Positions 4,651-33,256 of a DNA stretch of 33,256 nt are shown here, in pieces (position 1 is the stretch's first letter; each line of letters opens with the position of its first letter). The stretch covers positions 1 through 33,256 of the forward strand of contig JAPLKA010000096.1 in the NCBI GenBank assembly GCA_026388315.1, read 5' to 3'. The DNA is from Pseudomonadota bacterium. GTDB lineage: Bacteria > Desulfobacterota > Syntrophorhabdia > Syntrophorhabdales > Syntrophorhabdaceae. The position numbers and the translations under genes were made by a program. The notes under the pieces are model-generated. The model was not told the DNA's origin, did not search any database, and worked only from the letters and a program-made list of their open reading frames with translations.

Positions 4651-4779
4651 ATGAAAACACTGATTATAATTTTGCTGCTATTCGCTATGGGCATTTTCAT
4701 GTATGCATGTTCAACAGCATGTGTTGTTGTCCCAAGAGAAGGGGGTAAAGAACCCGTAACCATCCAGTACCCGAAGTAA
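4651..4779 (+). CDS. Small lipoprotein, 42 aa
   Basis: This short gene starts at ATG 4651 behind gaggaaatagagg. The product begins MKTLIIILLLFAMGIFMYAC, a lysine followed by a hydrophobic stretch and a lipobox-like MYAC with Cys 20 as the lipidation site. A second Cys (24) follows in CSTAC, and the mature tail of about 22 residues is polar. It is separated by 22 bases from the VKOR-DsbA gene in the same direction and is probably the last gene of that operon. I do not recognise the family. A membrane-anchored peptide with two cysteines beside a periplasmic disulfide enzyme is suggestive, not proof, of a partnership. Confidence 0.6.
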   Translation: MKTLIIILLLFAMGIFMYACSTACVVVPREGGKEPVTIQYPK

Positions 4780-5043
4780 TGTTGTGAATACGCAAAGGCG
4801 CCTGCTCTTAACGGCCTGTCGCCCAAATATTTCCAGTTGTCCAAATCTCGCTTCCGCTTGTGAATGAGGCACAAAGTTGTCTTAAAAAATGGGGGAGACT
4901 GAAGGGGGAAGAGGCAAATAACCAATCTTCCAAATCATACCTGTCTGCCTCGTCCAAGGCACAGGCAGGAACAGTTTGGAATTTCGGGTACCCGCTTGCG
5001 GGTGTTGATTATTGGAATTTGCAGTGAACAAGGAGGATAAAGC

Positions 5044-7752: not shown

Positions 7753-8080
7753 GGTTAATGATGCAAAACATACATTTTATCTTCGATGTGGCAGATAAAA
7801 TTAAAAATATCAAGCATTTGAAGATATGGCAAAGAGTCCTGTCCCCGAACGGGGGAATAATAATGAGCTTGATAAAATGTCTTCAACTGTTAGCTGTTAA
7901 CTGTTCACTATTCCACAATCCGAAATCGGCAATCCGTACGGTTTAATCCTGCCGAAGGCGGGACAATCGCTACCAAATGTGTCATTGCAAGACCCCTTTT
8001 GCTTTTCCAAGGGGAACGTCAAACAGTTTCCTACTTTTTAAAAAACGCCCCGTCCCCTTGCTCCAATGGGGGTATAAAAC
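7753..8080. other. Intergenic stretch with the second repeat copy
   Basis: I see no convincing gene. It holds a small cccc-gaac-gggg hairpin near 7842-7855, the second copy of the 35-bp repeat at 7930-7964, and a cccctt/aaggggg-type stem near 7995-8015. A short open frame at 7758-7946 runs through the repeat and has no recognisable product. Confidence 0.5.
7930..7964. repeat. 35-bp direct repeat, copy 2
   Basis: Identical to 6797-6831. Unlike copy 1 it lacks the left arm of the 16-bp inverted repeat, so only the short inner hairpin can form here. Confidence 0.8.
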
Positions 8081-16713: not shown

Positions 16714-17565
16714 TTAAGCCTCCGTCAAAATTGTGTTGTCGATGAGCCTTGTTTTGCCCAGCCTGCAGGCAATAGCAAGGACTGCTTTGTTGTTGTGTAT
16801 ATGAACAAGCTCCGTCAAGGTCTCGGCATCGGATATACTTACATATTCAATATCGATTCCATCTCTGGAACTCAAAATCTTTTCTGCTTCTTTTCTGAGT
16901 ACTGCCACATCTCTCTCTCCATCTTTAAAGAGTTCCTCTACCTTTTTCATGGATGCATAGATAAGGAGCCCTTTTTCACGTTCTTCGGGGCTCAGGTAGG
17001 CATTCCGGGAGCTCATAGCAAGGCCGCCATCTTCCCTTACCGTGGGGGCGGGTACAATTTCAAGGTCCATATTAAGATCTTTTACCATTCTCTCAATGAT
17101 TTTTAACTGCTGGTAGTCCTTCTGTCCAAAAATAGCATAATGGGGTTTCACGATATTAAAAAGCTTTGCAACGACTGTTGCCACACCCACAAAATGCCCC
17201 TTTCGCGAGAGACCGCAGAGGTGGTTTTCCAGATCTCTTACCTGGATATAGGTGGAATACCTGTCGGGATACATCGCTTTTCTGTCGGGGAAGAAGATAA
17301 TGTCGGTCTTTTCCTGTTCGAGAAGGCTCTTGTCTCTCTCCATGTTCCTGGGATATTTATCAAGGTCCTCGTTTGGACCAAATTGTGTAGGATTGACGAA
17401 TATGCTTACTACGACGATATCGCTCAATTCCCGCGCCTTTCTTACGAGGGCGAGATGGCCTTCGTGGAGGTAGCCCATAGTGGGAACGAAGCCGATCTTT
17501 TTCCCTCCCCTTCGCAGGGTCTCGGCTGCTTGCTGCATGTCTTTTACTGTCTCTATTATTAGCAT
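16714..17565 (-). CDS. panC: Pantothenate synthetase (pantoate-beta-alanine ligase)
   Basis: It joins pantoate and beta-alanine with ATP through a pantoyl-adenylate. The 283 residues are the family length. [18 protein letters not shown] (27-44) has the HEGH nucleotide motif; [28 protein letters not shown] and [16 protein letters not shown] complete the active site. ATG 17565 follows an aagg site. About 100 bases separate it from panB; this gap carries a 15-bp inverted repeat and a scattered 25-bp repeat, so read-through from panB may be modulated. Confidence 0.95.
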
Positions 17566-17592
17566 AATAAAAACCTTGCACTTATTTTCTAA

Positions 17593-17617
17593 CCCCGATA
17601 AACGAGATAAGAAAGTT
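17593..17617. repeat. 25-bp intergenic repeat, copy 1
   Basis: It matches 21214-21238 at 23 of 25 positions (core ccccgataaacg, then gataag and aagtt). It sits between panC and panB; the other copy follows cobO. Confidence 0.6.
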
Positions 17618-17620
17618 TAC

Positions 17621-17659
17621 AAAATTGTTTTCTGCCAAAAAAATGCAGAAAACAATTTT
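17621..17659. repeat. Perfect 15-bp inverted repeat between panB and panC
   Basis: The arm aaaattgttttctgc (17621-17635) pairs exactly with 17645-17659 across a nine-base A-rich loop. Read on the minus strand the stem ends in TTTT, so it may act as a weak terminator or an mRNA processing stem inside the pan operon. Confidence 0.7.
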
Positions 17660-17665
17660 AACTTA

Positions 17666-18451
17666 CTAATGAAAGGAATGGCTATCATCAGGGAATGTGC
17701 CCCCTTTAACCTCCTCAATATAGCCCTTTATCGCCTTATCCATATCTGCCCTTAAGTTAAGATATGTTTTTACAAACTTGGGTCTGAAGTCGCCGAGAAG
17801 ACCGAGCAGGTCATGGATGACAAGCACCTGTCCATCGCAATCGGGGCCTGCGCCGATTCCTATCGTTGGGATGCTGAGCGTTTCGGTAATCTTTTTTGAA
17901 ATATCCCTCGGTACACATTCGAGAACAATGGCAAAAGCGCCTGCTTCTTCCACCGCCTTCGCGTCCTCCATGAGTCGCTCTTCCTCTTTTTGAACCTTGT
18001 AGCCGCCCATGCTGTGTACAGACTGAGGGGTGAGTCCGATATGACCCATAACGGGTATGTCAATATCAGAGATAGCTTTAATAACTTCCTTCATCCTTTT
18101 GCCGCCTTCAAGCTTTACAGCCTCAGCGCCACTCTCTTTTATCATTCTTCCTGCATTCCGTTTCGCCTGTTCTATGCTCTCATGGTATGACATAAAGGGC
18201 ATATCGATGACAATAAGCGCCTTTTTTGCGCCTTTCACAACAGGTTTGGTATGGTGAATCATTTCCTCTACAGTAACAGGGATTGTGTTCGGATAACCGA
18301 GTAAAACCGAGCCAACGGAATCACCGACAAGGATCATATCTATACCGGCATTGTCCATGATGTTTGCAAAAACATAATCGTAAGCGGTGAGCATGGTGAG
18401 TTTTTCTTTACCTTTTCTTGCCCTTACAACCGGTACAGTTATCTTCTCCAT
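17666..18451 (-). CDS. panB: Ketopantoate hydroxymethyltransferase
   Basis: It transfers a one-carbon unit from methylene-THF to 2-oxoisovalerate, the first committed step of pantothenate synthesis. The 261-residue sequence has LTAYDYVFANIMDNAGIDMI, LVGDSVG with the metal Asp 44, the second metal site DMPFMSY, KLEGG, MGHIGLTPQSVH and VLECVP with the catalytic Glu. The frame is open upstream to 18586, but the protein starts at ATG 18451 (MEKITVPVVRA) behind aaggggg. Promoter and terminator-like hairpin upstream suggest attenuation. Confidence 0.95.
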   Translation of the reverse strand: MEKITVPVVRARKGKEKLTMLTAYDYVFANIMDNAGIDMILVGDSVGSVLLGYPNTIPVTVEEMIHHTKPVVKGAKKALIVIDMPFMSYHESIEQAKRNAGRMIKESGAEAVKLEGGKRMKEVIKAISDIDIPVMGHIGLTPQSVHSMGGYKVQKEEERLMEDAKAVEEAGAFAIVLECVPRDISKKITETLSIPTIGIGAGPDCDGQVLVIHDLLGLLGDFRPKFVKTYLNLRADMDKAIKGYIEEVKGGTFPDDSHSFH

Positions 18452-27295: not shown

Positions 27296-28072
27296 GTGAA
27301 AACAATTACTCTTCTCACAGACTTTGGATTAAAAGACCCTTACGTCGGGATTATGAAGGGGGTTATCCTCTCCATTAATCCCGATGTCAGGATTGTTGAC
27401 ATTACCCACGATGTGGAGCCCCAGGATATACGGGAAGGCGCCTTCCTCTTAAAGGAATACTATCAGTACTTTCCAAGGGACTCTATCCATGTGGCAATAG
27501 TTGACCCTACCGTGGGAAGCAGCAGGCGGGCATTAATTCTTTATAAAGATGGCCATGTATTTGTGGGACCCGACAATGGTATTTTTTCTTTGCTTATCGA
27601 AAGCGATACCGAGAGCTATGTGATAACCAACAGGGATTTCATGTTGAAGCAGATAAGCTCGTCTTTCCACGGAAGAGATGTCTTTGCACCCATTGCAGCT
27701 CACGTTGCGTATGGGCTTCACCCTTCAGCGCTGGGTGAGAAGGTGATCGATCTGGTGTGCCTCACAAATATCTATCCTGATATCATCAATGCGGTGCTCA
27801 CTGGAGAGGTAGTGAGGTTTGACAGGTTCGGGAACGCCATAACGAATATCGATATTGAGACCTTCAATGATTTCGCTGGCGGTAATGATTTCAGGATACA
27901 TATAGGCGATATGGACTTTGCCTCACTCCACAAAAGCTATTATGAGCAGGATTTCACCTGTCTGACAGGGAGTTCGGGCTACCTCGAATTCGGGTATTAC
28001 AAGGGGAGCTTCCAGGAGAAGACGGGAATCAGCAAAGGCGAAGCAGTCGCTGTAAAACTCTTTGAATTATAA
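27296..28072 (+). CDS. SAM hydrolase (S-adenosyl-L-methionine hydroxide adenosyltransferase, DUF62)
   Basis: The family splits SAM with water into adenosine and methionine and is related to chlorinase and fluorinase. The 258 residues open ITLLTDFGLKDPYVGIMKGV (4-23); VDITHDVEPQDIREGAF, the Asp-Arg pair in IVDPTVGSSRRAL (Asp 70, Arg 77) and His 125 in SFHGRDVFAP form the hydroxide triad; DRFGNAITNI opens the C-terminal barrel. The start is GTG 27296, five bases past mtnA, with no clear ribosome site. Beside mtnA it suggests an operon handling SAM by-products. Confidence 0.9.
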   Translation: MKTITLLTDFGLKDPYVGIMKGVILSINPDVRIVDITHDVEPQDIREGAFLLKEYYQYFPRDSIHVAIVDPTVGSSRRALILYKDGHVFVGPDNGIFSLLIESDTESYVITNRDFMLKQISSSFHGRDVFAPIAAHVAYGLHPSALGEKVIDLVCLTNIYPDIINAVLTGEVVRFDRFGNAITNIDIETFNDFAGGNDFRIHIGDMDFASLHKSYYEQDFTCLTGSSGYLEFGYYKGSFQEKTGISKGEAVAVKLFEL

Positions 28073-28100
28073 AGAATAATCCGCCATCGTGTATCCGCAA

Positions 28101-29456
28101 TCACGATGTTTCATCAAGTTGTAGACCCTCTTCGAGGGCTATGGCCTTCTGTCTGCCCAGTTCATCTATCTTGCGGAGAGGCCTTTCGAGCATGTTGCTC
28201 CTTGTCGTAACGAGGGTATCGTACTCTGTCTTTGCGGCATCAAGCCTATCGCCCATTGCCTTGAATTTTTCTTTGTAGGCTGTCCACTGTTTGGAAAACT
28301 CAGTGAGAAGCTTCAGTATTTCAGAGGCGGTCCGCTCAAGGTTAAAGTTTTCAATGGCCTGTCTTATCACTGCAAGAACAGCATAAAGGGTAAAGGGCGA
28401 ACAGAGAATAACCTTTTGCCTGAGCGCTTCATCCATAATTGCAGGATCGGCCTCATGGATGAAACTGTATACCTGCTCATTGGGGATGAAGATAATCACA
28501 TAGTCCACGGTATTTTCGGAAGGGTTAATGTACTCGCGGGTTGTAACCTGCTTGATCATAACCCTTGTGTTTTTAAGGAGTTCGTCCTTGTACCGTTTTT
28601 TGTCATGCTCTGATTCTGTATTCATGTAGTGCATATAATTATCGAGAGGGAATTTCACATCCATATTTATTTTCGTGCCATTGGGCATAAAAAATGTATA
28701 ATCAGGCCTACCGGAGGAATTTTCGAGTGTCTTTTGTTTTATGTAGTTAATCCCTTCTGTCATGCCTATGAGCCGCACGATATCTTCCGCCATGCGCTCA
28801 CCCCACTCGCCTCTCTTCTTCGAACTTGCAAGGGCATTGCCGAGATGTGCTGTAGTATCGTTGAGTTTTTGGGTGACCTCTTCGTGTTTCTTGATGAGGG
28901 TCGCAACTTCAGTAAATTTCTCTCCGCTTGTTTTTCCAAAATCCTCAACCCTTTTCTGCACCTCCGTTAAGGTTTTTCCTATTGCCTCGATATTCTGGTC
29001 AATGAGCTCTTTCTTGCCTTCAAGCTCCTTTTTCCCCTCCGTGGTCTGCGATTTCAGCTTTTCCTCGGCAAGCTTTATAAATTCGTCAGCATATTTTTTG
29101 AATTCGTCAGTATTCTTTGTCAGTGCATCAAGTGAAAGCGCCTTAAATGTTTCGCTCAATTCTTTTCTTACGGTCTCAAACCGCTGCACCTCCTCTTTAA
29201 AGTGTTTTTCTGATTCTTCAAGCCTTGTCAGTGCTTCTACTTTTGACTGCCGCTCAATGCTGAGCTCGTTTCTGAGCTGGTTGAGTTCTTCTTCTCTCTG
29301 CAGAATTTGTTTCCCTCTTTCTTCAACAACCGCCTCAGCGGAGCTTGCCCTTCCCTCAACCCCGGCATACTTCTTTTGGGAATATGCTGAAGAAAGAAGC
29401 CAGGCAACCACACCTCCTGCAATCAGGCCAACAATGATATAAATCAATATTTCCAC
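28101..29456 (-). CDS. rmuC: RmuC-family DNA recombination protein
   Basis: RmuC limits inversions between short repeats; its biochemical role is unsettled. Residues 3-23 form a membrane anchor, about 35-205 a long coiled coil rich in Glu and Lys, and about 210-400 a PD-(D/E)xK nuclease-like core: KKRGEWGERMAEDIV, then SGRPDYTFFMPNG and INMDVKFPLDNY with Asp 252, Asp 266 and Lys 268. The total of 451 residues is normal. It starts at GTG 29456 seven bases after aaggag. It faces the SAM hydrolase gene; a catcgtg/cacgatg inverted repeat at 28085-28108 sits at the shared 3' end. Confidence 0.9.
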   Translation of the reverse strand: MEILIYIIVGLIAGGVVAWLLSSAYSQKKYAGVEGRASSAEAVVEERGKQILQREEELNQLRNELSIERQSKVEALTRLEESEKHFKEEVQRFETVRKELSETFKALSLDALTKNTDEFKKYADEFIKLAEEKLKSQTTEGKKELEGKKELIDQNIEAIGKTLTEVQKRVEDFGKTSGEKFTEVATLIKKHEEVTQKLNDTTAHLGNALASSKKRGEWGERMAEDIVRLIGMTEGINYIKQKTLENSSGRPDYTFFMPNGTKINMDVKFPLDNYMHYMNTESEHDKKRYKDELLKNTRVMIKQVTTREYINPSENTVDYVIIFIPNEQVYSFIHEADPAIMDEALRQKVILCSPFTLYAVLAVIRQAIENFNLERTASEILKLLTEFSKQWTAYKEKFKAMGDRLDAAKTEYDTLVTTRSNMLERPLRKIDELGRQKAIALEEGLQLDETS

Positions 29457-29587
29457 TTTTTTACTCCTTATTCAAAACCAAGTAGATTTTCACGTACTTA
29501 CGTCATTTGATAGTGTGTAAAGTAAATGTTTGTTTAAATCTCAAGTCTCGACGTTCCACCCGTATTTGTTAGTTTCATGACTTGCAT

Positions 29588-29932
29588 TTATAGATTCAAA
29601 TGTATCCTGAGGGTGTTGTTTATTGATTCCTGAATACCGTTGCGGGCAATGAGTCCAATCGAATTTGTAAGCCTTTCCTTTGATATCGTTCTTATCTGAT
29701 GAGTAAGTATTATAGAATCCAGTAAAATTCCTCCTGTTCCCGCATTCAGCAAGACTTCATTCGGATAAACCTTTCTCCCTTTTTTAAGCGTCGTAATGGG
29801 CAGGATGGTTACTACGGGCATAACACTGTTAAAGTCTTCGTCGCTTATCACGAGGACGGGCCTTTTTCCTCCCTGTTCAGAGCCGGGAATAGGGCACAGG
29901 TCGGCAATAAATATGCCCCATTTATAATGCAT
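29588..29932 (-). CDS. MazF/PemK-family toxin
   Basis: These toxins are ribonucleases that cut mRNA at short sequences. The 114-residue protein has WGIFIADLCPIPGSEQGGKR with the catalytic Arg 24 that follows GGK, PVLVISDEDFN and VVTILPITT with the active-site Thr region, then ILLDSIILTHQIRTISKERL, the usual strand and helix. Everything needed for activity appears present. The ATG shares its first base with the last base of the antitoxin stop, the normal layout of such pairs. Confidence 0.9.
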   Translation of the reverse strand: MHYKWGIFIADLCPIPGSEQGGKRPVLVISDEDFNSVMPVVTILPITTLKKGRKVYPNEVLLNAGTGGILLDSIILTHQIRTISKERLTNSIGLIARNGIQESINNTLRIHLNL

Positions 29933-30180
29933 TACTCAACCCCTTCAAAATCAGGGTATTTAAAATCTTCTTTAATTTCTCTTATATCAGCGAGAAAAAG
30001 GGCATCATTCCCTGCTTCTAAAATGGCTTTTCTTATCTCTTCCTTTTTAATTCGATCAAGCTCGTCTTTTATTGCGTTCTCCACAAAGGAATTGATGGAT
30101 TTATAGAGCCCTTTTCCTACAGCTTCTCTCACTCCTTCCACAACTTCTTCGTCGAGTACGTAAGTTACCTTTTTACCCAT
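29932..30180 (-). CDS. Ribbon-helix-helix antitoxin of the MazF pair
   Basis: The 82-residue protein opens KKVTYVLDEEVVEGVREAVG, a short strand followed by two helices as in ribbon-helix-helix DNA-binding proteins, and ends in an acidic tail (IREIKEDFKYPDFEGVE) that would fill the toxin groove. It should bind the toxin and repress the shared promoter. ATG 30180 follows aagggg. No family name beyond RHH antitoxin can be given. Confidence 0.8.
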   Translation of the reverse strand: MGKKVTYVLDEEVVEGVREAVGKGLYKSINSFVENAIKDELDRIKKEEIRKAILEAGNDALFLADIREIKEDFKYPDFEGVE

Positions 30181-30262
30181 AATGTTTCCCCTTTAACCAG
30201 CCAAAACATGGTATCATGAGGTGGTATTTAATGCAAGCAAATTATATGGTATTAATAACAAG

Positions 30263-31087
30263 TTATCCTTTTGTTTTACGCCCGATAACCGTATAGGCCG
30301 TAAGCGCTGCCAAGAAACTGCCTTTCCCTGTTCTATTGATAAGTTCTTCGATCCAGCAGCAACCTTGAGCCGCGGAAATAAATCCTCCTGCAGTGGCCCT
30401 TCGTACCGTTTCACGTAAATTGTACACCTTGTCAGCCGTTTCAAAATCCGTTATAACCGAAGTGCTGGGGTAAATTTTTACATCTGATAAGCCGGAGGAA
30501 ATGAAATAATCGCACAAGTTACGGCCGATCCAGTTGTTCGTAAAAGAATCACACCACAAATTTTCAAGGGTTCGGGTAATTTCAATATTCTGAGAAGTTA
30601 TTGAAAATGTCCCCCAATCATTATCATGGGCGAGAAGCAACCCATCCGGCTCAAGAACACGGACTAACTCGGAGATGGCCCTTTCCGGTTGCGGAATGTG
30701 TTGCAGCACCCGATCAATCCGGCATCTTGCAAAGGAATTATCGGGAAAGGGCAGCGCTTTTACATCTCCTGTTTGGAATTGAACGGGTAGCTGCGCAGAA
30801 AGTTCCCGTGACCGTGCTTTCTCAATCATTGCGGCACTTGAGTCAAGACCGACTACTTTTCCGCCTGGCATTATTCGCTCAGCGATCCTGAAAGCATCAT
30901 CACCAAGTCCGCAACCAGCCTCAAGCACCGTCATCCCATGCTTAAGCTGCAACAGCTCGTAGCTTTTCAGCTTGTATTCCCTGAAATACGCTAACGAATC
31001 CAACAAGGCTAAGCAGGCAAAATATGCATCCTGGTTCTTTGCACCGTCAACGTCGGCAAAACCAGTCGAGAGATACTCGTCGTTCAT
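30263..31087 (-). CDS. SAM-dependent class I methyltransferase
   Basis: The 274 residues contain a Rossmann methyltransferase core: motif I VLEAGCGLGDDAFRIAERI (55-73), acidic strand 2 end VVGLDSS (Asp 82), TGDVKALPFPDNSF (Asp 108) and the strand 4 region VLQHIPQPERAISELVRVLE (127-146) as in UbiE-like enzymes. The substrate is unknown. A start seven codons upstream (31108) is open, but ATG 31087 has aaggag at the right distance. It is a single gene between a toxin-antitoxin pair and cassette-like DNA, so it may be accessory. Confidence 0.85.
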   Translation of the reverse strand: MNDEYLSTGFADVDGAKNQDAYFACLALLDSLAYFREYKLKSYELLQLKHGMTVLEAGCGLGDDAFRIAERIMPGGKVVGLDSSAAMIEKARSRELSAQLPVQFQTGDVKALPFPDNSFARCRIDRVLQHIPQPERAISELVRVLEPDGLLLAHDNDWGTFSITSQNIEITRTLENLWCDSFTNNWIGRNLCDYFISSGLSDVKIYPSTSVITDFETADKVYNLRETVRRATAGGFISAAQGCCWIEELINRTGKGSFLAALTAYTVIGRKTKG

Positions 31088-31143
31088 CAAAACTCCTTCC
31101 CAACCCATAGACGCCTTCTGTGTATATGAATTAATACAAAAGT

Positions 31144-31184
31144 GTTACCTATGTACCCAGAATAATCTGGTTACCTATGTCCCC
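31144..31184. repeat. Tandem 15-bp direct repeat, possible IS end remnant
   Basis: gttacctatgtaccc (31144-31158) and gttacctatgtcccc (31170-31184) differ at one base and start 26 bases apart. Spaced repeats of this kind form the ends of IS21-type elements. No transposase is present. Confidence 0.4.
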
Positions 31185-31228
31185 GTTCGCTCATTTTCCT
31201 CGATAGCCCTTTCAAATTAACTGAAGAA

Positions 31229-31708
31229 TCAAAAATCGAGGATGGGAGAACTTTCATTCGGCACCTTTCTAATATTCTGATCCTTTACAATAATGAAAAC
31301 TGCGAACAATAGAAACAGTAACTGTACCAACAAGGACCACCAAACCGGAGCGGTGGTTATGTATGCCGGGGCTTTTAGACTCCCTCCCCGGAGCACATAC
31401 AAACACAATGTGTGAATGTTTACGAAAGAAACCGCGGCCTTGAACCCGATCAGACAGCAGGTCACCATGAACCAGTGTCGAGGCGCCATCTTCACACCAG
31501 CGACTACAAAGAGCAGCGGAGCAAAGAAGCGCCATATCAACTCGTCTGTGTACGGGCGAACACCGGCAAATGGTATAGCTCTGAAGATGATTTGGTATAC
31601 GCTCTGCGCAGCCAGATCCGCCGCGAACGCCAGCGGTATGACTAATAGCCACCGTAGCCATGTCGGAAGCCTCAAAATGAGTTTATCGACCCATTGTTGC
31701 ACGAGCAT
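31229..31708 (-). CDS. Small integral membrane protein
   Basis: This unrecognised protein of 159 residues has four hydrophobic segments (about 17-42, 58-72, 79-106 and 122-141) and a polar C-terminus. A tgggggctg stretch just before ATG 31708 may serve as ribosome site, though close. The gene starts 31 bases after the GTTGGGC core of the attC-like site at 31739-31802 and points the same way as the nuclease-like gene, so it would be the gene of the next cassette. Its own attC site was not found downstream, where an IS-like repeat lies instead. Confidence 0.6.
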   Translation of the reverse strand: MLVQQWVDKLILRLPTWLRWLLVIPLAFAADLAAQSVYQIIFRAIPFAGVRPYTDELIWRFFAPLLFVVAGVKMAPRHWFMVTCCLIGFKAAVSFVNIHTLCLYVLRGGSLKAPAYITTAPVWWSLLVQLLFLLFAVFIIVKDQNIRKVPNESSPILDF

Positions 31709-31738
31709 CAGCCCCCATCTTCACATATTTATTCATAT

Positions 31739-31802
31739 GCCCAACATCGGCGTCAGTCAGAGGCCTGATTTCAGGCCGATTGACTGAACGCAATTGTTAG
31801 CT
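31739..31802 (-). other. attC-like recombination site, 64 bp
   Basis: Read on the minus strand: AGCTAAC, five bases, GCGTTCAGTCA, a central ggcctg/caggcc hairpin, TGACTGACGC, five to six bases, GTTGGGC. The inner arms pair with one extra T left out, like the unpaired bases that steer integron integrase. GTTGGGC fits the GTTRRRY core. It begins three bases after the stop of the nuclease-like gene, the usual position of attC in a cassette. Confidence 0.7.
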
Positions 31803-31805
31803 GAC

Positions 31806-32978
31806 TCATTCATTCACGCCGAAATAGGTGTTCCTATGTGGCCCGTCCAGAGTCAATTTCCCCTTTTGAATGTGCCAGAATGTTTCGTCAACCTCTTTGA
31901 GACATTCGGGTAAATTGTTAAATATCTCAACCGAAGAAAAACGCATCACATAGAAGCCGTGTCGCTGCAAATAGCGGTCACGAATGCGATCTTTAATGTA
32001 TGCATTGGCCTTTGCATGAAACTCAAGGCCATCGCACTCAATTGCCAGAGAAGGTCCTTTCGCTGTCTTTATCACAAAATCGATTTTATACTTGTGGTGG
32101 TTGTCATGGGCTTGGTACTGCGGCAGCCACAGAAGCCCGGCAGATTTTAGACCGTCTTCCATCAATTTCTCGATTGGACTCGATGGCGAGAAACTATACC
32201 AGGTCAGATTCCGGTCTCTCTTCAAAAGCTTACCCATATTGGTTTTGGTATATGCTACAACGGTATTAGCTGACGAGTATGGATACAAAGCATCAACCAG
32301 ATTATATACGCATAGATTCTGATCATCTCTCGTTTGAGGGCAGACCCAATTTCTATCACCTTTCTTTATGAACTTCTTTGGGCAGCAATTAAATAATGCT
32401 ACAGAGACTACCTCTGCCGCTTGGCCAAGGTCCACTGAGTCTATCACTTCGGACCATGAGTTCCTAGTGTGTCGGACCATGTCTTCAAAAATATGATTTA
32501 CATCCTGACCCATAAAGCAGAATCGACTGAACCAGTTGGATAGAACAAACGAGAGAGTTTGGAAAGTAATCTTTGCCCCCGATTGATTTCTAAACATATA
32601 GTCATGAAACATTATTTCTCGATTGATCTTGTATTCATTTGGGGCTCGGTCTTCAGAGGGTGTGCCTTTTTGACTGATGTACTTTTGAAGCCAGTCAGCA
32701 TTTTCATTCCACTCTCGCCACCCGGCAGGCAAATCCACGTAGCCAATAAAAGCATTCTCTGCCTTAAAGTCTGGTGCTTGTTTGCCAGCCCATGCCATTA
32801 ATAACTTCTTAAGGGTGCTGTCCTTTCCTTGAACTAAGACATTGCCGTTATTGTAGAATGTACATGGGATCTCAAACACACCATCTGTTACGCTTATTTG
32901 TTTTCCTTTTTGAACGTCTCGCTCATCAAGGATTTTGAGTTTTTGAGTATCTACGAAAAGCCTAAACCTTTCAATCAC
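31806..32978 (-). CDS. Putative nuclease: DUF559/Vsr-like C-terminal domain with TBP-like N-terminus
   Basis: The protein has 390 residues. The C-terminal domain reads HKYKIDFVIKTAKGPSLAIE (295-314), CDGLEFHAK, DRIRDRYLQRHGFYVMRFSS: Asp 300, Glu 314, Asp 316 and His 321 fit the restriction-endonuclease-like fold of DUF559 and Vsr. The N-terminus, with IPCTFYNNGNVLVQGKDSTL (37-56), resembles the TBP-like substrate domain of RNase HIII. The middle (about 90-290) is unknown and has six Cys. The frame is open to 33077, but GTG 32978 has a gagagg site and avoids reading through the attC-like site. The layout, one gene between two attC-like sites, makes it a cassette gene; a defence role is possible, not shown. 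Confidence 0.7.
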   Translation of the reverse strand: MIERFRLFVDTQKLKILDERDVQKGKQISVTDGVFEIPCTFYNNGNVLVQGKDSTLKKLLMAWAGKQAPDFKAENAFIGYVDLPAGWREWNENADWLQKYISQKGTPSEDRAPNEYKINREIMFHDYMFRNQSGAKITFQTLSFVLSNWFSRFCFMGQDVNHIFEDMVRHTRNSWSEVIDSVDLGQAAEVVSVALFNCCPKKFIKKGDRNWVCPQTRDDQNLCVYNLVDALYPYSSANTVVAYTKTNMGKLLKRDRNLTWYSFSPSSPIEKLMEDGLKSAGLLWLPQYQAHDNHHKYKIDFVIKTAKGPSLAIECDGLEFHAKANAYIKDRIRDRYLQRHGFYVMRFSSVEIFNNLPECLKEVDETFWHIQKGKLTLDGPHRNTYFGVNE

Positions 32979-33007
32979 TTTAACCTCTCTATGGTACGTT
33001 GCGTTGC

Positions 33008-33098
33008 AGCTAACGGGGAGCTGAGCGGTGGCACGACCCTGCCCACACCGAAGGTGTGACTGCAGAGGGAGTGACAACGTTCCAGCGTTTTGTTAGGC
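33008..33098 (-). other. attC-like recombination site, 91 bp
   Basis: On the minus strand GCCTAAC (33098-33092, fits RYYYAAC), five bases, GCTG..., a central cacacc-ttc-ggtgtg hairpin, then CAGC, five bases and GTTAGCT (33014-33008). CTAAC and GTTAG pair. GTTAGCT is the exact reverse complement of AGCTAAC at the far end of the next site, which defines a cassette of about 1.27 kb. From here to the window end (33099-33256) no gene is seen. Confidence 0.65.
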
Positions 33099-33256
33099 GG
33101 ACCGCTGGTAGCGGTACGCCGTGCCCACAAGGGCAACAAATCGATGAGAGCGTAGCTCAGCTCCCCGTAAGGCGGACGAGGAACCGAGCGGATCAACGAA
33201 CGAAGTGAGTAGCGAGGTGACGAGAGCGTGGAGGAGCGCCCATTGCTTTTAATTGC

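Follow-up and report, generated by a model that had tools for sequence, protein, structure and literature searches.

Sedentary chromosomal integrons, as found in Vibrio and Xanthomonas, and CALINs, which are clusters of attC sites without intI, have been defined in IntegronFinder 2.0 (PMC9024848; PMC12444791), and integrons have been reported, at varying prevalence, from many phyla, including Desulfobacterota and Spirochaetota (PMC9668308). Defence genes have been described in both chromosomal and mobile integrons (Darracq 2025, Getz 2025 and Kieffer 2025, as cited in PMC12444791), and Shedu has been reported in cassettes of Xanthomonas (PMC12444791). The window analyzed here, a stretch of 33,256 nucleotides, is contig C96 of genome G000, and a lone gene encoding a predicted nuclease lies near its end. 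Like sedentary chromosomal integrons and CALINs, the genome has an IntI with a divergent array, attC sites that fold on the bottom strand, cassettes mostly of one gene, toxin-antitoxin and defence cassettes, and attC clusters remote from intI. It differs from them in belonging to an uncultured clade, in an assembly broken at the arrays, in the long N-terminal extension of its 482-aa IntI, and in having two size types of attC and two repeated ORF-less cassettes. The window gene also resembles the integron-borne anti-phage cassettes, as these are outlined in the citing article, in being a single, predicted defence gene in a genome whose other cassettes hold Shedu and further systems, but differs in that no PADLOC system could be matched to this putative defence nuclease along its whole length. 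The unit in the window belongs to a known kind, the integron cassette, and is a probable defence cassette.

Boundaries and attC sites of the putative nuclease cassette

The features of the unit are as follows.

31745..33013, minus strand: very probable gene cassette in the form in which it would excise, 1269 bp, from TTAGCT... to ...G, with 7/7 complementarity to its own R''
31806..32978, minus strand: cassette ORF of 390 aa, GTG start at 32978 with GAGAGG upstream, C-terminal REase_MTES_1575/DUF559 domain
31739..31802, minus strand: attC of the nuclease cassette, R'' AGCTAAC (31802-31796) and R' GTTGGGC (31745-31739), identified by covariance and fold
33008..33098, minus strand: attC of the preceding ORF-less cassette, 91-bp type, R'' GCCTAAC and R' GTTAGCT

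The ends of the cassette are placed between the G and the TT of both R' boxes, where integron biochemistry has established the cut. The minus-strand heptamers GTTAGCT (33014-33008) and AGCTAAC (31802-31796) are exact reverse complements over 7/7 bases, and this match, which the original prediction had read from the raw sequence, proved right at the same positions. Among 61 attC sites in the genome each of the two heptamers occurs once, both from the window cassette, and hence they form a unique pair.

An earlier pattern scan had overlooked R'' boxes with A at position 3, and a covariance model (R1) was used instead, trained on 18 attC-like sites of the genome, all from contigs other than C96, with both window sites held out. 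Over the whole window and up to E=10, R1 finds two matches only, both on the minus strand, and these are the two sites that had been proposed to flank one gene in the same orientation. The covariance score, far above background, is 50.0 bits (E 5.2e-12) for the held-out site at 31739-31802 and a modest 19.9 bits (E 0.0027) for that at 33008-33098, likewise held out. As a control, the model detects eight canonical attC sites at the ends of resistance cassettes in two class 1 integron plasmid regions with scores of 20.6-40 bits, and two of these, at 20.6 and 22.6 bits, come close to the score of the weaker window site. Single-strand DNA folding also sets both sites apart from dinucleotide shuffles, with z -5.3 for 31739-31802 (equalled by 0/200 shuffles) and z -2.55 for the bottom strand of 33008-33098 (equalled by 1/200). 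The bottom strand folds more strongly than the top at either site (-19.0 versus -13.9 kcal/mol at 31739-31802; -16.4 versus -15.7 kcal/mol at 33008-33098), and together with the extrahelical bases this is as expected for attC. The unpaired base claimed for the stem of 31739-31802 was recovered as extrahelical bases in its L''/L' stem, and its R'' indeed begins three bases past the stop codon of the 390-aa ORF. A search of Rfam over 28000-33256 gave no relevant match. Thus, the unit has its own 3' attC, a start complementary to its own R'' and an attC of the same orientation ahead of it, which are the hallmarks of an integron cassette, and we hold with high confidence that 33013-31745 is a gene cassette, part of a cluster of cassettes on the chromosome of an IntI-encoding bacterium.

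The integrase and the genome-wide set of attC sites

The original prediction had suggested that intI be sought beyond position 33256. The contig stops at that position, and the integrase, with an array of its own, was found on another contig of the genome.

C46:8311-9759 (L017): integron integrase IntI, 482 aa, uninterrupted, TIGR02249 383 bits (cut-off 265)

This protein matches the IntI4 structure (PDB identifier 2a3v) at 2e-72, and the tyrosine-recombinase residues and the extra patch typical of IntI are conserved in the alignment. Its array is divergent from intI and occupies the minus strand of C46 1-8300. The protein has about 165 extra N-terminal residues, and Phage_int_SAM_4 matches two stretches of it, a pattern suggestive of duplication of the core-binding domain; another IntI of this family (L089) is likewise extended.

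Genome-wide, R1 yields 48 attC matches on 20 contigs at E<=0.001, of which up to 18 are its training sites. Some matches are solitary, and numerous sites are close to the ends of contigs, where an assembly broken by near-identical sites would be expected to leave them. Of 37 cassettes, each delimited by two adjacent sites, 20 have a start heptamer whose four variable bases all match the cassette's own R''. Random pairings match at 4/4 in 6.3% of cases, and the observed total was reached in none of 100,000 permutations (p<1e-5). Matching of the start to the R'' of the preceding site is not above chance (a mean of 1.70 of 4, against 1.75). The pairing of start and own R'', offered originally as the signature of a circular cassette, therefore extends to the genome as a whole; recombination of circular cassettes accounts for this pattern, which other hairpin repeats would not leave.

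Two ORF-less units recur among these sites. The first, of about 320 bp, has near-perfect inverted ends, GTAAGGCGGACCGC and GCGGTCCGCCTAAC, and an attC of the 91-bp type, and is seen whole or in part in six places, on C84, C109 (twice), C69 and C75 besides the window. The 91-bp type of attC seen at 33008-33098 also occurs on C84, C109 and C128, in copies 96-98% identical.

33092..33256, minus strand: 3' part of an ORF-less cassette cut by the contig end; the full form is about 320 bp, GTAAGGCGGACCGC...GCGGTCCGCCTAAC plus attC
L019 (C84):7448-7767; L018:15538-15782 and 17508-17828; L020:10420-10580; L022:1-141; window 33092-33256: copies of the unit of about 320 bp
L017:1956-2088, 4676-4806 and 7937-8067; L019:9393-9522; L058:4837-4966; L060:7052-7181; L064:3650-3780: copies of a further ORF-less unit, about 130 bp long

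In the full copy at C84:7448-7767 the start agrees with the R'' at 4/4. The start box of this unit reads GTAAGGC instead of GTTAGGC wherever that end is present. The second unit (start GTTCTCC, own R'' GGAGAAC) occurs in seven copies that are nearly identical, the one beside intI standing first in its array; an eighth copy is split (L021:17715-18330).

The recurrence of the 91-bp site and of the 320-bp unit across the genome is reminiscent of a repeat family, and part of the attC-like matches are solitary, which could be taken to mean that the window sites only resemble attC, being terminators or palindromic repeats of a dispersed, REP- or MITE-like kind, and that they enclose an ordinary chromosomal gene. 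We regard this as very improbable, since REP and MITE sequences do not show matching to an own R'' (p<1e-5), the same sites form an array headed by an integron integrase, and R1 detects class 1 attC sites as well. As a cassette, the unit could be moved in the manner of other integron cassettes: IntI would recognize the folded bottom strands of the two flanking attC sites and could excise the cassette as a circle through pairing of R' with R'', and the circle might then reinsert at attI or at another site. We infer that the cassette may be mobile and expressed.

The cassette gene and other cargo

The prediction of a nuclease-like gene is borne out by Pfam, in which the C-terminal domain of the 390-aa protein matches REase_MTES_1575 (PF18741) at 48.9 bits, above the gathering cut-off of 38.2 (7.3e-13), with DUF559 as the second-ranked match. 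The MTES_1575 and DUF559 domains are akin to the Vsr repair endonucleases. A single full-length homologue was found, in Prevotella (L025:4995-6197; 38% identity over 389 residues), and the motif K-x-D-F...AIECDG...H is conserved in both proteins, with D300, E314 and D316 among the conserved residues; the conserved D, ECDG and H motifs and the C-terminal position of the domain are shared with the Vsr-like nucleases of this family. At the N-terminus, a TBP-TOTE match is seen only in the Prevotella homologue and lies below the cut-off (0.012; 15.6 bits against 27), a faint likeness to TOTE-type conflict systems. An AlphaFold model of the cassette protein from two sequences had a pLDDT of 49, too poor for a fold search. 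From its sequence the product is predicted to be a Vsr-like (PD-(D/E)xK-type) nuclease with an N-terminal region resembling nucleic-acid-binding domains, and its nuclease activity is likely.

In PADLOC no described system matched the protein over its full length; its matches stronger than 0.01, which include PDC-S37 and Hhe, are confined to the nuclease domain, and in contrast to the large, multidomain proteins of those two systems the window gene is lone and encodes 390 aa. Matches in NCBIfam are far below cut-off, those in plasmid records cover the domain only, and no relative was found in viral contigs and phage records. Homologues in a conserved non-cassette context, which would have spoken against a cassette, were not encountered: among 395 genomes of the phylum there is a single match, to the C-terminal domain, and the gene is otherwise absent from the sampled relatives. 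The Prevotella homologue has an OLD-like ATPase gene (PADLOC HEC-04, 3e-43) on one side and a gene of unknown function on the other, in an operon bracketed, as judged by eye, by IS66-type transposases, and no attC matches are present at that locus; the window cassette differs from this operon in being without the ATPase partner.

Kinship of the domain with Vsr could indicate a DNA-repair or other cellular enzyme, but we find this unlikely, as the gene is missing from sampled relatives and sits in a cassette, and its Prevotella counterpart shares an operon with an OLD-like ATPase between transposases. A role in anti-phage defence, with the predicted Vsr-like nuclease acting as a putative DNA-cutting effector, is favoured to a fair degree by the domain, the setting and the company of the gene. 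That company includes a Shedu gene, SduA, in the intI-linked array of C46 (L017:152-1033; PADLOC 1e-92; start GTTCGGT, own R'' ACCGAAC). Cassettes of C46 and other contigs also encode an AriA-like ATPase (9e-45), DUF2971/PDC-S31 proteins, a protein kinase, a trypsin-like protease and the toxins BrnT, HicA, ParE and PIN. The predicted nuclease gene is probably among several anti-virus genes that the cassettes of this genome carry, and the clade is a usable source of candidate defence genes (Shedu, AriA-like, PDC-S31 and the window nuclease, as predicted). More speculatively, the protein might represent an undescribed one-gene anti-phage nuclease family, with a TBP-like N-terminus and a Vsr-like C-terminus, that is solo in integrons and partnered by an OLD-like ATPase in Bacteroidota, and the clade would then keep its defence library spread over numerous cassette clusters, which lie at various chromosomal loci and are all supplied by one IntI. 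The clade also lends itself to testing whether a single IntI is able to supply numerous clusters in different places.

Chromosomal setting and insertion-sequence ends

The last 99 bases of contig C69 and the first 99 of the reverse complement of C96 are identical, an overlap that appears typical of neighbouring contigs in a graph assembly. Joining the two puts the cluster next to RmuC (28101-29456) on one side and a rhodanese gene of C69 on the other. The overlap would lead back to chromosomal genes and therefore, with intI on C46 and not on C96, the window cluster is probably a CALIN. The sister genome G395 has no array at this place: about 540 bp, holding one 85-aa gene, separate its RmuC from the same rhodanese gene. 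In a closer relative, G286 (rhodanese 93% identical), the rhodanese side carries a gene for a 350-aa NucS_C-like protein (L115:155-1207) and none of the window's cassettes. The array-free locus in one relative and the different gene in the other make this a variable locus, and the spot seems to host differing nuclease-type genes. The expectation that the unit would be cleanly absent elsewhere was thus borne out for the locus as a whole in G395, and in these relatives absence was seen at that level only, with no clean loss of the single nuclease cassette. Within the segment absent from G395, between RmuC and a methyltransferase gene, lies a toxin gene of the MazF/PemK type, preceded by an antitoxin-like ORF (29588-30180).

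The original prediction had called cassettes rarely noted in this kind of anaerobe, a remark that the relatives contradict: attC-like sites are present in 28 of the 40 genomes searched, this one included, and several have 20-48 sites, the number reaching 48 in one relative. The clade is thus one in which cassettes are common, not rare, and an uncultured clade joins those with large cassette collections. An integrase above cut-off was found in only some of these genomes.

Downstream of the array, the window holds the end of an insertion sequence and one further gene.

31091..31195, plus strand: decayed IS481-like insertion-sequence end, lying downstream of the array; copies adjoin other arrays
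31229..31708, minus strand: predicted membrane protein of 159 aa, past the last attC, possibly the last cassette
Window 31091-31195; L019:2248; L067:3015; L056:6216; L063:2479; L061:5025; L110, L111, L112, L113, L116, L118 and L125: locations of IS481-like ends

The 159-aa protein has no match in Pfam, PADLOC or NCBIfam, and R1 recognizes no attC downstream of its gene in the window. An intact transposase of the IS481-like element is present in L120. The 105-bp element near array ends is the end of this IS481-like element, and readings of it as an array terminator or as an attI/attG-like site were rejected for that reason.

The window cluster could be a dead remnant, in which the cassettes are genuine but have ceased to be moved by IntI (a stranded CALIN, or one brought in together with an IS481-like element). 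The contig is without intI, decayed IS481 ends stand beside many arrays in the same orientation, and there are relatives with many attC sites in which no intact intI was found. We nevertheless consider this a doubtful reading, because the uninterrupted 482-aa IntI of the same genome could act in trans and the cassette keeps a perfect 7/7 R'/R'' pair and sound attC.

The decayed IS481-like ends beside attC clusters have the same relative orientation in 13/13 co-located cases, in this genome and in relatives, and the co-location may stem from target preference or from shared history. The methyltransferase ORF (30263-31108) opens with MGWEGV, which is the start of the IS481-like transposase (window 31085-31108), and its first residues seem to derive from the IS remnant.
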